Shown: piece by piece, positions 24,038 to 32,421 of the stretch
How positions within the stretch are numbered: the stretch's first letter is position 1
Layout of the letters: every line of letters begins with the position of its first letter
Notes under the pieces: generated by a model
Told to the model about the DNA's origin: nothing
What the model saw: the letters and a program-made list of their open reading frames with translations, nothing else
Databases searched by the model: none
NCBI GenBank assembly: GCA_021776595.1
Contig: JAJFFP010000016.1
Location: forward strand, 1 to 36,808
From: Robiginitomaculum sp.
Lineage (GTDB): Bacteria; Pseudomonadota; Alphaproteobacteria; Caulobacterales; Maricaulaceae
Direction: 5' to 3'
Length of the DNA: 36,808 bases
Made by a program: the position numbers and the translations under genes

Positions 24038-27000
24038 ATGAACAAGGCGAACGGCATGGCCAGACATAAACTTGGCAAACATGCCTTTAGTGTCGAAGAA
24101 TTTATCGCCCTTGCCGAAGGTCCGGCGGGGGCACCTTTGCATGAGAAAGGCGCTTTATCGCGCGAGGCAAGGCGTTATCTGAGGCTGGTGCATGAAGATG
24201 CGATCGCCGATGATATTGAAGGTCTTGGTATAGAGGATGTGCTGGTCTGCGCGGTGCGGTTCTGGGTATTTGGCAAAGTGCGCAAACCCGGCGAGACGCT
24301 GGTTCGTATCCATGCCGGTAAAACCGCAAATGGCAAACCGCTGGGCCGGGATATTCTGGAAATCATTATCGGGGACAAACCATTTTTGGTCGATTCGGTA
24401 ATGGGCGAGCTGGGCCAGTGGGGGGTCAACACCCTGGCCATGTTCCACCCGGTGATTGATCTGGGCCGCGCCGATAGCGGCGAGCGCAATTCTGGCGCAC
24501 CGGCCATACGCGAAAGTATGATTCAGGTGCAATTTGAGCCTTTAAGCCGGACCCGGCGGCAAAAAGTGCTGCAGGGCCTGCACGAGACGCTGCATGATGT
24601 GGAACTGGCGGTTGATGACTGGATGGGCATGCGCGCCGAAATGAACCGCGCCATCGAGGAATTGCATGAAGCCCCGGCGGCGGCCCCCGAAGAGGAAGTG
24701 GCCGAATGTATCGAGTTTTTGCGCTGGTTACGCGATGAGCATTTCGCCTTTTTAGGAAGTCGCCGCTATACCTTCCCGGTTGATGAAAGCGGGCAATTGC
24801 TACACGCTGAACCAGAAGTGGTCGATGGCACCGGCCTTGGCCTGCTGCGCGATTATGATGCCAATGTGTTACGCCGTGGCTCCGAACCCAGCATGCTGGC
24901 ACCAGCCATTCAGGAATTTTTAAACGAGCCCACCCCGCTGATTGTGGCCAAGTCCAATATGCGATCGCGCGTGCACAGGCGGGTTTATATGGATTATATC
25001 GGCGTCAAGCATTGGCGTGAGGATGGTCAGGTAACGGGCGAGACCCGCTTTGTTGGTCTTTTCACCGCCGAAGCCTATGACCGCATGGCCCGCGATGTGC
25101 CGCTTATCCGGCGCAAGGTGCGTCGGGTGCTGATGCGTGCCCAGCGTGGCCCTGGCACCCATAATGCCAAAAAACTGCAAAACATTGTCGAAAATTACCC
25201 GCGTGATGAATTGTTTCAGATCAGTGAAACAGAATTACTGGAAATCAGTCGCGGTATTTTGCATCTGAACGATCGCCCACGGCCCAAATTATTTGTGCGC
25301 CAGGACCGCTTTAACCGGTTTGTTTCAGCCTTTGTGTTTATTCCGCGTGAGCATTATAATACCCAATTGCGTGAAGATGTCGGCAAGCTGGTCAGCACCG
25401 CTTATGGTGGCAGGTTATCGGCCTCCTATCCGCACTTTGGCGATGGACCGCTGGCCCGTGTTCATATCATTATTGGTCTTGACCCCCATAACCATCTGGA
25501 GCCGGACCTGCAAGCACTGGAGCGCCAGATCGCCCAATTGGCGCGCACCTGGCATGACCGGCTGGAATCCGAGGCCCGCCAGACCGGTGCCCCCACACAT
25601 TTACAGGAAACGCTGGGCGCTTATCGTGGTGCGTTTTCGGCAGGTTATAAGGAAGACTATGACGCCAAAGAAGCGCTGGTGGATATTGCCCATATTGAAG
25701 CCCTGAAACAGGACCCCGGCCTTTCCGCCCGGCTTTATCGTCTTGAGGGCGATAAGGACACGCTTATTCGCGTCAAACTTTATAAGGCTGGGCATTGCCT
25801 GCCACTCTCCGATGTCATGCCAATTTTCGAGACCATGGGTTTTGAAGCCATGACCGAGGCCAGCTATCCGGTGCGCCCCAAAGGCCGCGATGCGGTATGG
25901 GTGCACGCTTTTGAGCTACGCAGCACCGATGGCGAAGTCACCGACTTAAAACGCATTGCCGAACCGGTGCAGGATGCGCTGGTTGCCATCTGGAGTGGCC
26001 GTTCGGAAAATGACGGGTTTAACCGGCTGGTCCTGCGCCTTGGTGTGAACTGGCGCAGCGCCGCGTTTTTACGCACCTGTGCCCGTTATCGCGCACAAAG
26101 CGGCCTGGACCCGTCCCAACGGGTGCAGGAAGAAGCACTGGCGGAAAACCCGGCCATATCAGAACTATTGCTGGCGCTGGCGCGCACCCGCTTCAAACCA
26201 GGCGCCTTTGAAACCCTGGATGAGCGCCAGAACGCGCAGAAAAAAATCTGCGAAGAGATTATCACCTGTCTGGACAAGGTCCCCAGCCTTGACCATGACC
26301 GGGTGTTACGACGCCTGATGCGCCTGATTTGCGCCATTAAACGAACCAGCTTTTATCAGCGCGATGATAAGGGACAGCCCCTGCAACGCATCTCCATCAA
26401 AATTGCCAGCCGTGAGCTGGAAACCCTGCCGGCACCAAAGCCATACCGGGAGATATTTGTCTGGTCGCCCAATGTAGAAGGGGTGCATTTGCGCTTTGGA
26501 CCGGTGGCGCGCGGCGGCTTGCGCTGGTCTGACCGGCGTGATGATTTTCGCACTGAAGTGCTTGGTCTGGTCAAGGCCCAGCAGGTCAAAAACAGCGTCA
26601 TTGTTCCCGTGGGTTCCAAAGGCGGGTTTTTCCCCAAATGCCTGCCTCGCGGCGGCACCCGCGATGAAATTCAGGCCGAAGGCATTAGCGCCTATAAAAC
26701 CTTCATTCGCGGGCTATTGGACATTACCGATACCCTGGACACCACCGGAGGCATTGTGCCCCCCGATGAGTTGGTAATTTGGGATGAGGATGATCCTTAT
26801 CTGGTGGTTGCCGCCGACAAAGGCACGGCCACATTTTCCGATATTGCCAACGCCATGGCCGAAGAATATGGATTTTGGCTGGCTGATGCTTTCGCCTCTG
26901 GGGGGTCAGTTGGCTATGATCACAAGAAAATGGGCATTACCGCTCGTGGTGCCTGGGAAGCGGTCAAGCGGCATTTTCGCGAAATGGGCAAAGACATCCA

Positions 27001-28960
27001 GAACGAGGCGTTCAGTGTTATTGGTGTAGGCGACATGTCCGGCGATGTGTTTGGCAATGGCATGTTGCTGTCCACACATACCCGCCTGCTGGCAGCCTTT
27101 GATCACCGCGATATTTTTATCGACCCGGATCCTGCGGACGCGCAGGCCAATTGGGATGAACGCAAACGCCTGTTTGATCTGCCCAGAACCTCCTGGCAGG
27201 ATTATAATCGGGAGCTGATTTCCAAAGGTGGCGGCATATTCAGTCGCCGCGCCAAATCCATACCGCTTTCACCTGAAATGCAAGCGTTGACCGGCATTCA
27301 GGCCAAAAGCGCAGCGCCTAATGACATTATTCATGCACTGTTACAGGCCGATTGTGAGCTTTTATGGTTTGGCGGTATCGGCACCTATATCAAAAGCGCC
27401 GAGGAACAGAACTGGCAGGTCGGCGACAAGGCCAATGATGCCATTCGTATTGATGCCGCTTTGGTGGGTGCCAGCGTCATCGGTGAGGGTGCCAATCTTG
27501 GCATTACCCAGGCCGGGCGTATTGAATTTTCCAGAGCCGGCGGGCGCATCAATGCTGATTTTGTTGATAATTCAGCGGGTGTGGATACTTCGGACCATGA
27601 GGTAAACTTAAAAATCCTGCTCAATGCTGCCATTCGTGCCGGAAAATTGAGTATGGACGGGCGTAATAAAGTGCTGGCTTCGATGACCGATGAAGTAGCC
27701 GAACATGTGCTGGCCCACAATTACGACCAGACCCTGGCGCTTTCCATGGCGCAATTAACCGCCCGCCACGATATGGAGCCGTTTGAGCGTTATATGGAAA
27801 GCCTTGAAGCAAGAGGCCAGTTGGACCGGGATGTCGAGGGCCTGCCCTCAACCGATGAAATGATGGTGCGCCGTGATGCCGGTGAAGCCCTGACCCGGCC
27901 AGAGATTGCCACTTTAATGGCCTATGCCAAAAACACGCTGGTCGAGGATTTGCTGGATAGTGATTTGCCGGACGAGCCACACTTCACCCCGCTCTTGACC
28001 GCGTATTTTCCAAAAGCGGTGCAAAGCTATCAAGAAGAACGCGAACATCACCGCTTGCGGCGCGAGATCATCTCCACCGTATTGGTCAATGATATGGTCA
28101 ATCAGGGCGGCCCGACCTTCCTTTATCGCCTGACCGCCGGGGCCGGCGTTAACATTGCCGATGGCACCCGCGCGTATGAGGCCAGCCGGCAATTATTTGA
28201 CTTTGATGCCTTGATCAACCGTATCAACGCTTATGATAATAAAGCGCCGGTAACCGGGTTATATGACCTGCACCGCGAAGTGATGCGCCTGTTGCGCCGC
28301 GAATCCTACTGGCTGGCCCGGCGTTTTGGCTCTGGCACCAAAGATCTGGATAGCTTTATTGACAAATACAAAGGCGGCATTGATGAATTGCGCCAACAGA
28401 TAGACGGCTTTATTTCTCCCTTTGAAGAGCAGCGTATTTCCAAACGTATCGCCCGCTTTGAAGAAAATGGCGCCCCGGCGGATCTGGCACACGATATTGC
28501 TATATTGCGCCCGCTGATCTCTGCCACAGATGTGCTGGATATGGCCGCCAAGGAAAACTGGCCAACCCAGGCCGTGGCGGCGCTATATCATGCGTTTGGC
28601 GATCGTTTCTGCTTTGACCGTCTGCGCGGGGCGGCAGGTCAACTGGACACAGACCAGCGCTGGGACCGTTTGGCAGTACGGCGTCTAATCGAGGACCTTT
28701 ATAGCGCCCAGCGCGGCCTGACCAGTTCCGCCCTTATTCATGCGGGTCAGAGCGACAATCGCCCGAATACGGGCGATAATGCAGACCTGCGCGAATGGGC
28801 GCAAGCGCTGGTGCAGAGCTGGAAAGAGGCCAATGGCGCCCTGGCCACCAAGACCATGCAAACCTTTGACGAGCTTGATGCCACCGGCGAATGGACCCTG
28901 GCCAAACTGGCCATCGCCAACACCCAGATGAGCGAACTGGCCGCCCAGATCGTAACGTAG
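24038..28960 (+). CDS. NAD-dependent glutamate dehydrogenase, large (1640-residue) type
   Basis: Converts glutamate and NAD+ to 2-oxoglutarate, ammonia and NADH. It belongs to the L-180 class of very large bacterial NAD-GDHs, usually about 1600 residues. The long N-terminal part carries ACT-like regulatory segments. The catalytic domain is marked by G-G-L-R-W-S-D-R-R-D-D-F-R-T-E-V-L-G-L at about 826-844, the lysine motif V-P-V-G-S-K-G-G-F near 857-865, and G-D-M-S-G-D-V-F-G-N-G-M near 998-1009. A C-terminal helical region follows. ATG 24038 has a strong AAGGAGG seven bases upstream. In this class the enzyme is known to respond to amino acids such as aspartate and arginine; that is family knowledge, not seen here. 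It stands as a single-gene unit. Confidence 0.97.
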   Translation: MNKANGMARHKLGKHAFSVEEFIALAEGPAGAPLHEKGALSREARRYLRLVHEDAIADDIEGLGIEDVLVCAVRFWVFGKVRKPGETLVRIHAGKTANGKPLGRDILEIIIGDKPFLVDSVMGELGQWGVNTLAMFHPVIDLGRADSGERNSGAPAIRESMIQVQFEPLSRTRRQKVLQGLHETLHDVELAVDDWMGMRAEMNRAIEELHEAPAAAPEEEVAECIEFLRWLRDEHFAFLGSRRYTFPVDESGQLLHAEPEVVDGTGLGLLRDYDANVLRRGSEPSMLAPAIQEFLNEPTPLIVAKSNMRSRVHRRVYMDYIGVKHWREDGQVTGETRFVGLFTAEAYDRMARDVPLIRRKVRRVLMRAQRGPGTHNAKKLQNIVENYPRDELFQISETELLEISRGILHLNDRPRPKLFVRQDRFNRFVSAFVFIPREHYNTQLREDVGKLVSTAYGGRLSASYPHFGDGPLARVHIIIGLDPHNHLEPDLQALERQIAQLARTWHDRLESEARQTGAPTHLQETLGAYRGAFSAGYKEDYDAKEALVDIAHIEALKQDPGLSARLYRLEGDKDTLIRVKLYKAGHCLPLSDVMPIFETMGFEAMTEASYPVRPKGRDAVWVHAFELRSTDGEVTDLKRIAEPVQDALVAIWSGRSENDGFNRLVLRLGVNWRSAAFLRTCARYRAQSGLDPSQRVQEEALAENPAISELLLALARTRFKPGAFETLDERQNAQKKICEEIITCLDKVPSLDHDRVLRRLMRLICAIKRTSFYQRDDKGQPLQRISIKIASRELETLPAPKPYREIFVWSPNVEGVHLRFGPVARGGLRWSDRRDDFRTEVLGLVKAQQVKNSVIVPVGSKGGFFPKCLPRGGTRDEIQAEGISAYKTFIRGLLDITDTLDTTGGIVPPDELVIWDEDDPYLVVAADKGTATFSDIANAMAEEYGFWLADAFASGGSVGYDHKKMGITARGAWEAVKRHFREMGKDIQNEAFSVIGVGDMSGDVFGNGMLLSTHTRLLAAFDHRDIFIDPDPADAQANWDERKRLFDLPRTSWQDYNRELISKGGGIFSRRAKSIPLSPEMQALTGIQAKSAAPNDIIHALLQADCELLWFGGIGTYIKSAEEQNWQVGDKANDAIRIDAALVGASVIGEGANLGITQAGRIEFSRAGGRINADFVDNSAGVDTSDHEVNLKILLNAAIRAGKLSMDGRNKVLASMTDEVAEHVLAHNYDQTLALSMAQLTARHDMEPFERYMESLEARGQLDRDVEGLPSTDEMMVRRDAGEALTRPEIATLMAYAKNTLVEDLLDSDLPDEPHFTPLLTAYFPKAVQSYQEEREHHRLRREIISTVLVNDMVNQGGPTFLYRLTAGAGVNIADGTRAYEASRQLFDFDALINRINAYDNKAPVTGLYDLHREVMRLLRRESYWLARRFGSGTKDLDSFIDKYKGGIDELRQQIDGFISPFEEQRISKRIARFEENGAPADLAHDIAILRPLISATDVLDMAAKENWPTQAVAALYHAFGDRFCFDRLRGAAGQLDTDQRWDRLAVRRLIEDLYSAQRGLTSSALIHAGQSDNRPNTGDNADLREWAQALVQSWKEANGALATKTMQTFDELDATGEWTLAKLAIANTQMSELAAQIVT

Positions 28961-29239
28961 GTTTCTGTGATACCCTCATGGTGATCCTGTTCAACCATGG
29001 ATGGGTGCGCCCCTTCCCTTCGACAGGCTCAGGGTGAGGGTGAGGGGCGTTTAAGGTTACTCCTCAGTCGTCATTGCGGCGCAGGCCGGGGCCCGGTTGT
29101 GACAGTTCACTGGATACCGACGCATCTCGGTATGACGATAATTGGCACTATATTCCTGATAAAATTTCAGGTTTGCAGAAGATTACGCTAAGGTATGAGA
29201 AAAATGCCGGGGGGCCACACCAATGAATATACCAGAACC
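28961..29239. other. Intergenic repeats before the three-paralog array
   Basis: This gap contains a fragment of the first dispersed family (CCTTCGACAGGCTCAGGGTGAGGG, 29016-29040) and a degenerate copy of the GTCATCCCGG family (29069-29137). It ends in the promoter candidate and leader described separately. No ORF other than the leader is seen. Confidence 0.5.
29157..29165 (+). promoter_or_regulatory. Extended -10 promoter candidate for the paralog array
   Basis: TGATAAAAT combines the extended TGn element with TAAAAT, matching TATAAT at five of six positions. No -35 hexamer is evident at the right distance, as is allowed for extended -10 promoters. It lies about 75 bases before the first array gene. 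Confidence 0.4.
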
Positions 29240-29243
29240 ATGA
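29223..29243 (+). CDS. Six-codon leader ORF ending in the first array start codon
   Basis: ATG AAT ATA CCA GAA CCA TGA encodes M-N-I-P-E-P. Its stop overlaps the start of the first array gene in ATGA, exactly like the junctions between the array genes. GGGGGG at about 29209-29214 could serve as ribosome site. It may be a translation-coupling minicistron or the last codons of a deleted earlier array gene. Confidence 0.3.
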   Translation: MNIPEP

Positions 29244-29355
29244 TCCTGCGCCGCGTTATCAAGCATTTTCGTGAGCAGGAATGGACCGCCATTTTTCTGG
29301 ATCTCCTGATCGTGGTGGTCGGGGTGTTTGTTGGTTTGCAGGTCAATAACTGGAA
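29240..29355 (+). repeat. Conserved 116-base 5' block, copy 1
   Basis: This is the near-identical start of the array genes, repeated at 29971-30086 and 30741-30856. By eye, copies 1 and 2 differ at about 7 of 116 bases and copies 2 and 3 at about 7, with no gaps. Beyond the block the nucleotide similarity disappears. Confidence 0.85.
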
Positions 29356-29974
29356 TGAGCAGCAAGCTGAAAATCGACTTGAACATGAATATCTGGAGCG
29401 ACTTTACGTTGATATGAATGGGAGTTTACAAGATTACGAACGAAACAACGGCTGGGATGAACGAACCATCGCATCACAAGCAATTGTGCTCAAGGCGCTG
29501 CGTGCCGGAACGCTTGACGAGAGCGAGCGAAAGGCTTTCGCCCTCGGACTGGTGTTCGTTGGTAGCCTTAATCCGATCAGGCAGAGATGGGGGACAGTTG
29601 AGGAGTTAAAATCAACCGGAAATATCGCTATTCTGCGCGATCTGGAAATCAGAAGCATGATCGCTGCAATCGATGCTGACTACGAACGGTCCAGCAATAT
29701 AATTGCGGTAGCGGCTTCTCAGGTTACACAAATAAGAACCGTCTTAATGCAGGCGTTTTCGCCGCTCGAATATGGATTCCAAATGAACGATCCTATTGGC
29801 GTGAATTATGATTTTGAGGCGCTAGCCGCCGATCAGCGCTTCATCAATCTATTCGCAAATGTGCAAGTTAAATCCGAACTAATGCTGAACCTCAATGATG
29901 GGCACATGCGTCAGATCGAACAATTAAGAGACAAGCTTGCGGAAACTCTGGAAATTGAAGTGGCAACACCATGA
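29240..29974 (+). CDS. Single-pass membrane protein, DUF6090-like, array copy 1
   Basis: A 244-residue protein from ATG 29240, the start shared with the two paralogs. A longer in-frame opening to 29195 exists but lacks a well-spaced ribosome site. The basic N-terminus (M-I-L-R-R-V-I-K-H-F) is followed by one membrane helix (about 20-36, L-D-L-L-I-V-V-V-G-V-F-V-G-L-Q) and N-N-W-N-E. Then comes a predicted coiled, charged soluble domain of about 200 residues, expected to be periplasmic by the positive-inside rule. A shared motif E-L-K-S-T-G-N-I-A-I-L-R-D is in the middle. The helix-NWNE module recalls DUF6090 proteins of unknown function. It ends in ATGA overlapping copy 2. Confidence 0.85.
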   Translation: MILRRVIKHFREQEWTAIFLDLLIVVVGVFVGLQVNNWNEQQAENRLEHEYLERLYVDMNGSLQDYERNNGWDERTIASQAIVLKALRAGTLDESERKAFALGLVFVGSLNPIRQRWGTVEELKSTGNIAILRDLEIRSMIAAIDADYERSSNIIAVAASQVTQIRTVLMQAFSPLEYGFQMNDPIGVNYDFEALAADQRFINLFANVQVKSELMLNLNDGHMRQIEQLRDKLAETLEIEVATP

Positions 29975-30086
29975 TCCTGCGCCGCGTTATCAAGCATTTT
30001 CGTGAGCAGGAATGGACCGCCATTTTTCTTGATTTCCTGATCGTGGTGGTCGGGGTGTTTGTTGGCTTGCAGGTATCAAACTGGAA
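29971..30086 (+). repeat. Conserved 116-base 5' block, copy 2
   Basis: Second copy of the array block. The first 58 bases are identical to copy 1, and most later differences from the other copies are silent, apart from the V-N/V-S change before the final N-W. Confidence 0.85.
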
Positions 30087-30744
30087 CGATGATCGACTTA
30101 GAGAGAAAACCGAACAGGTTTATATCGAACGTATCCGCGAAGATCTTTCTGCAAATATTGAAGATTTCAAACAAAGGATAGCGTATTACAACCAGGCAAG
30201 GACGAACGGCCTCGCGGCGCTAACCGCGCTTGATGACCCGCCCGAAAAAACCGGCGTTCAGTTTCTCGTCGATGTTTATCAAGCATCTCAGGCTTTGCCC
30301 AGAGAGATGGGGCGAGATACCTATGATGAAATATTGTCTGCTGGCGGTACTAGTGCCATTTCAAACGCAGTTGTTCGCAAAAAGCTGACGAATTTTTACC
30401 GAAGCATGACAGCGTCTACGGCTAGAATGCAATATATACCGCCATATCGCGATACCATTCGCAAGTTGCTTCCCTATCGGGCACAGACGGCCATTCGTGC
30501 GGCCTGTAATGACGTCATTTCCACGGGCAAAAACAACGAAGCGAAAATAACGCTTCCCGAAAATTGCCAGCCCATTCTGGCACCTGTGGAAACATCCCAG
30601 GCCATTCGTATCGTATTAGAGCAGGATATTCGTCAAGACCTTAACCGGCTTCTTTCGGACCTCGATAATAAACTGTCTGCCGCCCAACTGATCATCGACC
30701 GGGTAGAGTTACTGGACAAATACCTTGAGGCTCAATACCCATGA
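29971..30744 (+). CDS. Single-pass membrane protein, DUF6090-like, array copy 2
   Basis: 257 residues. The first 38 or so residues equal copy 1 except at a few positions, then the sequence diverges almost completely. What remains in common is the pattern E-x-x-Y-I-E-R-I-R-E-D-L after the helix and a weaker version of the central motif (E-I-L-S-A-G-G-T-S-A-I-S-N). Two cysteines are in the soluble domain (in R-A-A-C-N-D and P-E-N-C-Q-P), absent from copy 1, and could form a periplasmic disulfide. The C-terminal quarter is a likely coiled coil ending in E-A-Q-Y-P. Its start is inside copy 1's stop, and its stop is inside copy 3's start. Confidence 0.85.
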   Translation: MILRRVIKHFREQEWTAIFLDFLIVVVGVFVGLQVSNWNDDRLREKTEQVYIERIREDLSANIEDFKQRIAYYNQARTNGLAALTALDDPPEKTGVQFLVDVYQASQALPREMGRDTYDEILSAGGTSAISNAVVRKKLTNFYRSMTASTARMQYIPPYRDTIRKLLPYRAQTAIRAACNDVISTGKNNEAKITLPENCQPILAPVETSQAIRIVLEQDIRQDLNRLLSDLDNKLSAAQLIIDRVELLDKYLEAQYP

Positions 30745-30856
30745 TCCTGCGCCGCGTTATCAAGCATTTTCGCCAGCAGGAATGGACCGCCATTTTTCTG
30801 GATTTTCTGATCGTGGTGGTCGGGGTGTTTGTCGGTTTACAGGTATCAAACTGGAA
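30741..30856 (+). repeat. Conserved 116-base 5' block, copy 3
   Basis: Third copy of the array block. It differs from copy 2 by two bases in one codon pair (CGTGAG to CGCCAG, changing E to Q) and five apparently silent changes. Confidence 0.85.
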
Positions 30857-31493
30857 CGCCTCACGCAAAGACAGGACGGATGAGCAGTTGTTCATAGTAC
30901 GGTTGCATGAAGATATCTTGCTCGCAGAAAGTCTCACCAGTCGTGTTCGCACCAGAAGGATAGACCGGCTTACGGTGCTTACGGAGGCTGCCAATAAAAT
31001 CTTCGCGCGTAATCAGGTGAAAGCACTAAATGATAAAGAATGCCGAGCGGTGGGAGCTGCTCATGTCTATAACATTCCCCTGTCTGATTTGCCATCACTC
31101 GTTGAACTTGCAAGTTCGGGGCGTGTGTCCATCATTAGAGACACAAAATTGCGCACAGCGTTAGTGGCGCTGCAACAAACGAAATCCGCGCTGGCGTCAT
31201 TTATTAACCTTCAAGGTTCTGGTGCTGTTGACCTACCGTCAAAATATCCGGACCTGTTACAACTGGAGGCATATTTTGATGTGCAGATGAACGAAATTCG
31301 TTCCCGCACGAAGTGCAACATGGACAAGATGCGGGCGAGCCAGGCGTTCTTGAATGACTATAGCGAAAATATCGACAGCTATGACGCTTTTGTGCGAGAC
31401 GGACTCGCGCCATGGAATTTGCAGTTTAAACAAGTCCATCATTTGGTCGATGCAGCACTCGGCGTCGATCATGACAGCGTGGATAAACCATGA
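30741..31493 (+). CDS. Single-pass membrane protein, DUF6090-like, array copy 3
   Basis: 250 residues, with the same N-terminal module (I-K-H-F-R-Q-Q-E-W-T-A-I-F-L-D-F-L) and one membrane helix. The remaining domain carries Q-L-F-I-V-R-L-H-E-D-I and a clear central motif E-L-A-S-S-G-R-V-S-I-I-R-D-T-K-L-R, close to that of copy 1. Two cysteines appear (in K-E-C-R-A and T-K-C-N-M), at positions different from copy 2. It ends in D-K-P followed by TGA, and the overlapping ATG there opens only a 24-codon frame, which may be the remnant of a fourth copy. Confidence 0.85.
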   Translation: MILRRVIKHFRQQEWTAIFLDFLIVVVGVFVGLQVSNWNASRKDRTDEQLFIVRLHEDILLAESLTSRVRTRRIDRLTVLTEAANKIFARNQVKALNDKECRAVGAAHVYNIPLSDLPSLVELASSGRVSIIRDTKLRTALVALQQTKSALASFINLQGSGAVDLPSKYPDLLQLEAYFDVQMNEIRSRTKCNMDKMRASQAFLNDYSENIDSYDAFVRDGLAPWNLQFKQVHHLVDAALGVDHDSVDKP

Positions 31494-31660
31494 TCCGGTT
31501 CCGGATTCTTTTTCATATAACAGCTTGTGTCACCAGGTCAGCCATGGGGCTATCGGGGGATTAGGTGCGTTTGAGATGCACAATGGATCCCGGCGCGGTG
31601 GACGGGATGACATTGCCAGGCTTATCCCGGTAATACAGAACTGTGTTTGGGCTTAACCGG

Positions 31661-31683
31661 ATCACCCGAATGAATCGGGTGAT
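31661..31683. other. Stem-loop between the array and rph
   Basis: ATCACCCGA (31661-31669) and TCGGGTGAT (31675-31683) form a perfect nine-pair stem with a five-base loop, between the converging array and rph genes. No T run follows on either strand, so it may be a transcript-stabilising or Rho-assisted end. A half copy of the GTCATCCCGG family (GGATCCCGGCGCGG...CGGGATGAC, 31583-31613) lies just before it. Confidence 0.4.
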
Positions 31684-31704
31684 GACAAATATGGCTGTAA
31701 ATTT

Positions 31705-32421
31705 CTATTCCCTCACCGCATCCCTTTGCGCCGTAAAAATCTCGGCGCAGCCCTTGCGGGCCAGCACCATCAGCGCATCAAAATCATCAAAGGACAGTGG
31801 TTTGTCTTCGGCGGTGGCCTGCACTTCGATTATACCGCCAGAGCCGGAGAGGACAAAATTGGCATCCGTTTGCGCTCGGCTGTCTTCCTCATATTCCAGA
31901 TCCAGCACTGGCGTATCGTCCACTACACCGCAGGAAATGGCAGCAGCCATATCATAGACCGGATCGGATTTCAGAACGCCATCTTTAACCAAACCCAGAC
32001 AAGCCAGTTTCAGCGCCACCCAGGCACCGCAAATGCTGGCCGTGCGGGTGCCGCCATCGGCCTGAATAACATCGCAATCCAGCACAATCTGGCGCTCGCC
32101 AAGGGCCTCTAGATCGGTCACGGCGCGCAAAGAGCGGCCGATCAGGCGCTGAATCTCCTGGGTGCGACCCGATTGCTTGCCTGCGGCCGCTTCACGGCGC
32201 ATACGGCTGTGGGTAGAGCGCGGTAACATACCATATTCCGCCGTCACCCATCCCTTATTGCTGCCACGCATCCAGGGCGGCACCCGATCGCTAATGCTGG
32301 CCGAACAGAGCACATGGGTATTTCCAAAGCGCACCAGGGCCGAACCCTCGGCATACGGCATAATGCCCGTCTCGAAACTAAAGGCGCGTAATTCATCATT
32401 TTGGCGACCAGATTGGCGCAT
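31705..32421 (-). CDS. rph: Ribonuclease PH
   Basis: A phosphate-dependent 3'-5' exoribonuclease that trims tRNA 3' ends. The 238-residue protein shows [13 protein letters not shown] at the start, then [20 protein letters not shown], then [14 protein letters not shown]. These are followed by [18 protein letters not shown] and a late Q-A-T-A-E-D-K-P-L motif. Length and order are standard. GGAG about eight bases upstream supports ATG 32421. It is divergent from hrcA with a short shared upstream region, an arrangement common in alphaproteobacteria. Confidence 0.97.

Follow-up and report, generated by a model that had tools for sequence, protein, structure and literature searches.

Tandem membrane-protein genes with a common 5' anchor block in Robiginitomaculum and the probable exchange of their bodies by recombination

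Integrons collect single-gene cassettes into arrays of open repertoire and shuffled order, which also hold toxin–antitoxin (TA) modules. Arrays like them in all these respects are described here, starting from three tandem membrane-protein genes at positions 29240 to 31493 of a stretch of 36,808 nucleotides (nt) from Robiginitomaculum sp. (assembly GCA_021776595.1, contig JAJFFP010000016.1, positions 1 to 36,808, forward strand), which we call the window. Unlike in integrons, the common sequence is coding and lies at the 5' end of the family genes, and no integron integrase was found above the cut-off in any of the 18 genomes of the Robiginitomaculum group (hereafter, the genus). According to Garrett et al. 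(2022, PMC9484751), the type VII secretion immunity genes esaG and tipC form strings of non-identical tandem paralogues, in which recombination via nucleotide blocks of high similarity alters copy number and combinations; the recombination demonstrated there is between paralogues of one species. The present genes are likewise tandem, non-identical paralogues with common nucleotide blocks, and recombination via these is supported by comparison, with approximately unbiased (AU) tests rejecting in none of seven cases. They differ from that account in having a single 5' anchor block, bodies common to several species, and non-family genes and TA modules within the arrays. The same source describes the tsaI membrane immunity genes, with one 5' block of about 75 residues that covers the first two transmembrane domains and with the rest diverged, for which its authors see little evidence of recombination between genes; our family is built alike, and here the comparison points to an exchange of bodies. 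We would thus regard recombining immunity-gene strings as the closest known system and, in architecture, integrons. In our opinion, the genes probably belong to integrase-free cassette arrays that are reshuffled by homologous recombination via the coding membrane-anchor block, a judgement that concerns the mechanism of exchange alone and not the function.

Comparison shows each gene to consist of a 5' block of about 117 nt, with the start codon, a basic tail and one transmembrane helix, and an apparently exchangeable body of about 200 residues. These parts and the borders of the site lie in the window as follows.

29240-29974, + strand: open reading frame (ORF) of gene 1, with an in-frame alternative start at 29195
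29971-30744, + strand: ORF of gene 2, in ATGA overlap with the gene 1 stop
30741-31493, + strand: ORF of gene 3, in ATGA overlap with the gene 2 stop
29240..29356, + strand: block 1, with start codon, basic N-terminus, transmembrane helix and NWN
29357..29974, + strand: body 1, 97% identical in nt to the body in genome G004 (block 87%, flanking core genes 78-79%)
29971..30087, + strand: block 2
30088..30744, + strand: body 2, with members of its body family in records of Robiginitomaculum, Marinicaulis and Hyphomonas as well
30741..30857, + strand: block 3
30858..31493, + strand: body 3, with its closest relative at about 45% amino-acid identity (first set of 135 genes)
31490..31506, + strand: degenerate stub, in which the gene 3 stop codon lies within the little that remains of a fourth block start
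29100..29239, + strand: leader 5' of gene 1, which also precedes gene 1 of G004 beside gdh (pairwise alignment)
24038..28960, + strand: left border of the variable site, a large gene (gdh) that we take to be of the NAD-glutamate dehydrogenase type
31705..32421, − strand: right border of the variable site, presumably an rph-like gene

A first-pass annotation, made from the letters of the window alone, had reported a near-identical 5' block in three consecutive genes with diverged remainders, and this was borne out: over 117 nt the blocks differ pairwise at 8, 11 and 7 positions, mostly silent, with 2, 3 and 1 amino-acid changes in 39 residues. They form one repeat family of 122 nt, with copies at 29237, 29968 and 30738, the second and third being 93% and 89% identical to the first. 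Third-position identity between them (35 codons) is 0.91, 0.86 and 0.83; for blocks of the same subtype (n = 42, from eight genus genomes), the mean is 0.59 between genomes and 0.62 within. Overall, the three proteins are about 27% identical, block included. Of the two motifs that had been ascribed to all three bodies, the E..(Y/F)..R(L/I)..D helix is present in each, whereas ELxSxG...RD occurs in genes 1 and 3 only, gene 2 having EILSAGG...SN in its place. The fourth block start at 31490 and the recurrence of the block elsewhere in the genome go beyond that annotation.

The clearest evidence for separate histories of block and body comes from gene 1 and its counterpart L040_2656 in G004 (below, G denotes a genome, C a contig and L a locus; G000 is the genome of the window and C8 its contig). 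The two bodies are 97% identical in nt, while gdh and rph-hrcA-grpE reach 79% and 78% between the same genomes, and a blastn alignment of 88.5% over 1500 nt joins the gdh end, the leader and gene 1. The block of the same gene is 87% identical. Synonymous divergence (dS) is 0.67 in the block and 0.030 in the body, with 10 of 24 synonymous sites differing in the former (10.5 rounded down) and 4 of 136 in the latter (Fisher p 6e-7), so that synonymous divergence in the two parts disagrees. Third-position identity is 0.98 in the body, 0.67 in the block and 0.56 in gdh (405 codons). The G004 body and gdh lie on one contig (C4), which argues against mis-binning.

The same holds for a good part of the genus. 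Among the 31 genus pairs that allowed a comparison with gdh (bodies at least 65% identical in amino acids), third-position identity is higher in the body than in gdh by over 0.10 in 24, differs by no more than 0.10 in seven and is lower in no pair; the block is above gdh in 12 of these pairs, equal to it in 14 and lower in five. Body and gdh reach, for instance, 97% and 78% in nt for G000/G004, 95% and 68% for G000/G015, and 93% and 65% for G014/G010. In this comparison gdh was the only core gene. Comparison thus shows that many bodies are younger than the split of the species that carry them; we say many and not all because the pairs had been chosen for similar bodies. In a wider set of 346 family genes from 82 assemblies (genes with the same first 400 nt merged beforehand), 98 between-assembly pairs have bodies at least 65% identical in amino acids, and in 58 of them third-position identity is lower in the block than in the body by over 0.05. 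When the bodies are at least 79.5% identical (n = 35), it lies below in 28 and above in seven. Block and body identities are 0.63 and 0.85 for L042/L049, 0.60 and 0.87 for L034/L045, and 0.56 and 0.84 for L020/L034; the reverse is seen for L042/L040, with 0.95 in the block and 0.85 in the body.

Blocks cluster by genome and bodies do not. The mean identity of genus blocks is 0.566 within genomes and 0.485 between them, a difference that none of 2000 permutations equalled. In trees of 69 genus genes, the genome label changes 41 times along the block tree (shuffled mean 49.2, minimum 44) and 52 times along the body tree, a grouping by genome and not by copy that had been foreseen for recombining blocks. 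For 53 of 135 genes (the first, unmerged gene set) the closest block belongs to the genome of the gene itself, and for 11 of 134 the closest body does. Comparison shows the block sequence to be typical of its genome, with the shift in identity falling within the block. Two other explanations of the bodies were tried and rejected. Positive selection was dropped because 16 of 18 pairs have ratios of nonsynonymous to synonymous divergence (dN/dS) of 0.12 to 0.32, as under purifying selection (one of the 16 within a single genome); the two exceptions are gene 1 against G004, at 0.88 from 16 differences, and one further pair, at 0.73. The base composition gave no sign of foreign bodies, the content of guanine plus cytosine in block and body being nearly alike.

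The order of the bodies is scarcely conserved. Where both members of an orthologous body pair are followed by a family gene (n = 44), the followers are orthologous in two cases, so that the one-to-one orthology with concordant trees that would speak for simple descent was not found. At 60% amino-acid identity, the bodies of the 346 genes fall into 255 clusters, 197 of them singletons, and two clusters recur within one assembly; in the 135-gene set, no two genes of one genome have the same first 50 body residues. Relatives of the bodies reach into other families, and at about 70% amino-acid identity they are present in Marinicella litoralis (L132) and Paraglaciecola hydrolytica (L167) records. 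A tblastn search with gene 2, the one gene searched, found no match in plasmid and phage collections.

The junctions between genes give further evidence. Tight junctions number 180, of which 138 overlap by four bases (ATGA type) and 35 by one (TAATG type). Past 36 of 73 uncoupled genes that end in TGA there is a stub of a block start (at least 11 of 15 nt matching a block of the same genome), compared with 0 of 730 shifted controls; with the gene's own block only, the count is 26 of 73 and the control again 0 of 730. A looser definition of terminal genes had given 41 of 111 against 3 of 999 shifted controls and is superseded by the stricter count. By eye, stub length varies from 15 to 60 nt. 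In G017 and G004, units of stub and spacer are near-identical between cassettes. Hairpin repeats of the type CCCGGATCAAGTCCGGGATGACAC, near-identical within a genome, were also observed in spacers between non-overlapping cassettes (L047, L034, L009 and window 31560-31700).

Genes outside the family share the arrays, among them CcdAB, ParDE, SnoaL and others, often bounded by block starts, and comparison shows their 3' ends to fall at a block start. In the genus, 15 of 88 family genes are preceded by a tightly coupled non-family ORF. The 26 loci read hold nine TA modules, seven of them preceded by a stub. Profiles assigned CcdB in G010, G011 and G017, CcdAB with ParDE in G011, ParE in G004 and a Gp49/HTH (helix-turn-helix) pair in L139; the modules of L052 and L185 were assigned by clustering of ParE, and that of L180 by eye. 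The junction of the CcdB 3' end with the block start has equal spacing in three genomes and the same sequence but for one base; past it, a block gene follows in two of them, with bodies 19% identical, and only a stub in the third. Three of the six CcdB matches in the 18 genus genomes lie in arrays, which cover about 0.22% of the bases (binomial 2e-7, in a test set up after the first case had been seen).

Other companions of the arrays were observed as well. Two families of short membrane proteins (MTLNDIYLASQ... and ...NRWLTLGANIG...VRQNA...), with a similar membrane-edge motif, are interspersed in arrays at L010 4109-8310 (G000:C83), L040, L042, L049, L050 and L185; they stand beside arrays in 14 and 10 assemblies, and the members tested gave no Pfam match. 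Tetratricopeptide repeat (TPR) proteins with a conserved membrane N-terminus (ELKRRNVFRV...) adjoin arrays in 15 assemblies, for example at L011 4770-9000 (G000:C31), where a block stub follows, and at L009 8882-10672 (G000:C91); a weak FlgO-like part was found in two of three tested.

The best explanation of the three window genes is, we think, that they form one short array of a genome-wide cassette system. Block copies that flank a body, or a block together with a truncated terminal block, would serve as homology arms, through which single bodies would be swapped, inserted or deleted when an array recombines, in the RecA manner, with a sister array or with DNA from outside. Recombination within the blocks would preserve exact 3' junctions, homogenise the blocks of a genome and leave stubs at the ends, and the TA modules may raise the cost of losing an array. 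Such recombination would need no integrase, since no integron integrase stands above cut-off and the phage-integrase matches of G000 lie off its array contigs. The first-pass annotation had proposed gene conversion of the blocks under diversifying bodies; the differing histories of block and body agree with it, whereas the clearest pattern is one of blocks that stay resident while bodies, and TA modules with them, pass from genome to genome. A bolder version, which we put forward tentatively and would not bet on, is that the anchor-coding start block combines, free of any integrase, the roles of socket, recombination arm and donor of stop codons, by means of which bacteria of several proteobacterial families could build non-redundant repertoires for membrane-anchored recognition out of single bodies and TA modules, perhaps with mixed assembly via the anchor.

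Several results weigh against exchange through the block. The body is no closer than gdh in the seven genus pairs mentioned above, and the block lies above the body in 21 of the 98 wider pairs, as expected from vertical descent. Within the main block subtype the within-genome excess is small (0.624 against 0.581), and adjacent block copies (0.647, n = 11) are barely more alike than other copies of the same genome. AU tests on 99 nt of the block rejected a common block ancestry in none of seven body pairs or groups, and the constrained tree beat the free tree in three of the seven; this counts against the exchange, whose main support is the dS contrast and the counts of genome labels. No stub was detected by the test used after 37 of the 73 uncoupled genes, and a stub length of 15 to 60 nt is on the short side for RecA. 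Enrichment of ParE was not shown, with one of the 49 matches listed lying in an array, in a search that missed two modules seen directly. Finally, the genus genomes are drafts of 7 to 520 contigs, several of which stop within arrays.

Some of these results have another explanation. If selection alone kept the anchor for a fixed partner, and the bodies diverged after an old tandem duplication with no recombination, the 21 pairs with the better conserved block would follow, as would the invariance of W15, G28 and W38 in all 133 relatives of the protein alignment and of D21 in 128, which confirms the strong constraint on the block that had been suggested as an alternative. This explanation can give neither a block dS of 0.67 beside a body dS of 0.03 in one gene nor blocks that group by genome with bodies that do not, and we consider it improbable. 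Somewhat better placed, and still unlikely, is concerted evolution only, in which gene conversion homogenises the blocks of paralogues while the bodies descend vertically in arrays that are merely rearranged: the greater likeness of blocks within genomes, the near-identical units of stub and spacer in G017 and G004, and the seven genus pairs with bodies as close as gdh all speak for it, and it is opposed by the 24 of 31 pairs in which the body exceeds gdh, by neighbours conserved in only 2 of 44 cases and by body relatives at about 70% in Marinicella and Paraglaciecola, which we take to be Gammaproteobacteria.

A true integron or an array of clustered attC sites lacking an integron integrase (CALIN), or some other site-specific system with its site overlapping the start codon, would account for single-gene cassettes in shuffled order, TA modules in the arrays and a short common sequence at cassette ends. 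Against it, the integrase profile TIGR02249 has no match above cut-off in the 18 genus genomes (matches below the cut-off occur in all 18 and likewise in all 14 control genomes), the array-bearing contigs of G000 hold no phage-integrase match, and the variable stub lengths reveal no fixed cut point. At the gathering threshold, Rfam found only a tRNA in eight loci. We regard this as the least probable of the explanations, and homologous exchange via the anchor block as the one to be preferred.

Regarding the product, the basic tail suggests an N-in orientation, and the protein would be a single-pass one with a periplasmic helix bundle. In addition to the invariant residues, the five relatives that lack D21 have E, and G32 is present in 122 of 133. 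The constant anchor, with G28/G32 of the GxxxG type and the acidic residue 21, might pair with itself or bind a fixed partner, the variable body being the part that would meet a variable ligand. AlphaFold models of genes 2 and 1, the two modelled, have a mean predicted local distance difference test score (pLDDT) of 95.7 and 93.0, respectively, and agree in the order of their elements: a short helix at the N-terminus, then a long helix that starts at about residue 15, crosses the membrane and ends at residue 86-89, then a bundle that includes a small hairpin. In these models the two bodies are helix bundles, which are probably periplasmic. Among the matches listed for the gene 2 model, Foldseek gave none in the PDB at E 0.001 or better, and none at that level came from a viral structure library; VIA-align matched genes 2 and 1 with helical bundles whose origin is mixed and which are unusable for function, and no fold match was decisive.

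The resemblance to DUF6090 that had been suggested in the first-pass annotation holds for the family more than for the three proteins. The three window proteins score 16.5, 17.7 and 19.0 bits against PF19578, below the gathering cut-off of 23.5, whereas 56 of 133 relatives have an E value of 1e-3 or lower (1.3e-8 in the best case), and another gene of G000 (C91:15585-15914) passes the cut-off with 23.9 bits; the bodies appear weakly DUF6090-like. Among the PADLOC models of anti-phage systems, genes 1 and 3 match none at 0.01, gene 2 only PDC-M01B at 0.0091, and 1 of 133 relatives matches at 1e-3; none of these matches is convincing.

As a first guess about function, a repertoire for immunity to, or exclusion of, antagonists or phages is possible, and we hold it tentatively; the non-redundant repertoires, the change in copy number and the company of TA modules would fit it. 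In the arrays read, no cognate secreted toxin was recognised beside the genes, only type II TA modules, and no phage was linked to them. Ranked next, and more doubtful, is a sensor array in which the bodies, as helix bundles of the chemoreceptor kind, bind ligands and signal via the anchor. If the exchange of bodies is real, capture in the style of cassettes would be feasible without an integron integrase, the anchor-coding sequence being enough for ordinary recombination across species, and a DUF6090-like family would become a testable repertoire of 0 to 25 members per genome. Our literature search found no work that treats this family or an anchor-based array of the kind described.

The block recurs among relatives. 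In G000 there are 16 block matches, three on C8, seven on C83, five on C91 and one 32-nt piece on C31, some being truncated copies past the last gene of an array (C91:12622-12676, C83:15208-15250). In a set of 61 genomes (the present one plus 60 relatives), 19 carry the DNA block and 29 the protein block; copy number runs from 0 to 25 and thus differs between relatives, as had been expected. A profile built from full-length relatives matches 75 of 137 genomes of the taxonomic family. In another genus of that family, an array of more than 20 family genes (G023:C1:309000-328300, L033) carries block flavours of its own and a stub that matches them.

Between gdh and rph, gene content varies as well: three family genes in the window, one each in G012 and G017, and none in G002, where the matched flanks end 45 nt apart, or in G010, where an ORF of 407 residues on the gdh strand fills the gap. 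In G004 at least four family genes adjoin gdh, and in G006 three matches run from gdh to the contig end; such arrays may explain contig breaks of some draft genomes at these loci. Near rph, an ORF that is presumably FAD-monooxygenase-like was observed in G010 (L058 4042-5265) and G004 (L039 2434-3690) and is absent between gdh and rph in the window. Transfer RNA genes are a usual kind of insertion hotspot, and one of them (L009 3939-4009) lies directly past the 3' end of the C91 array.

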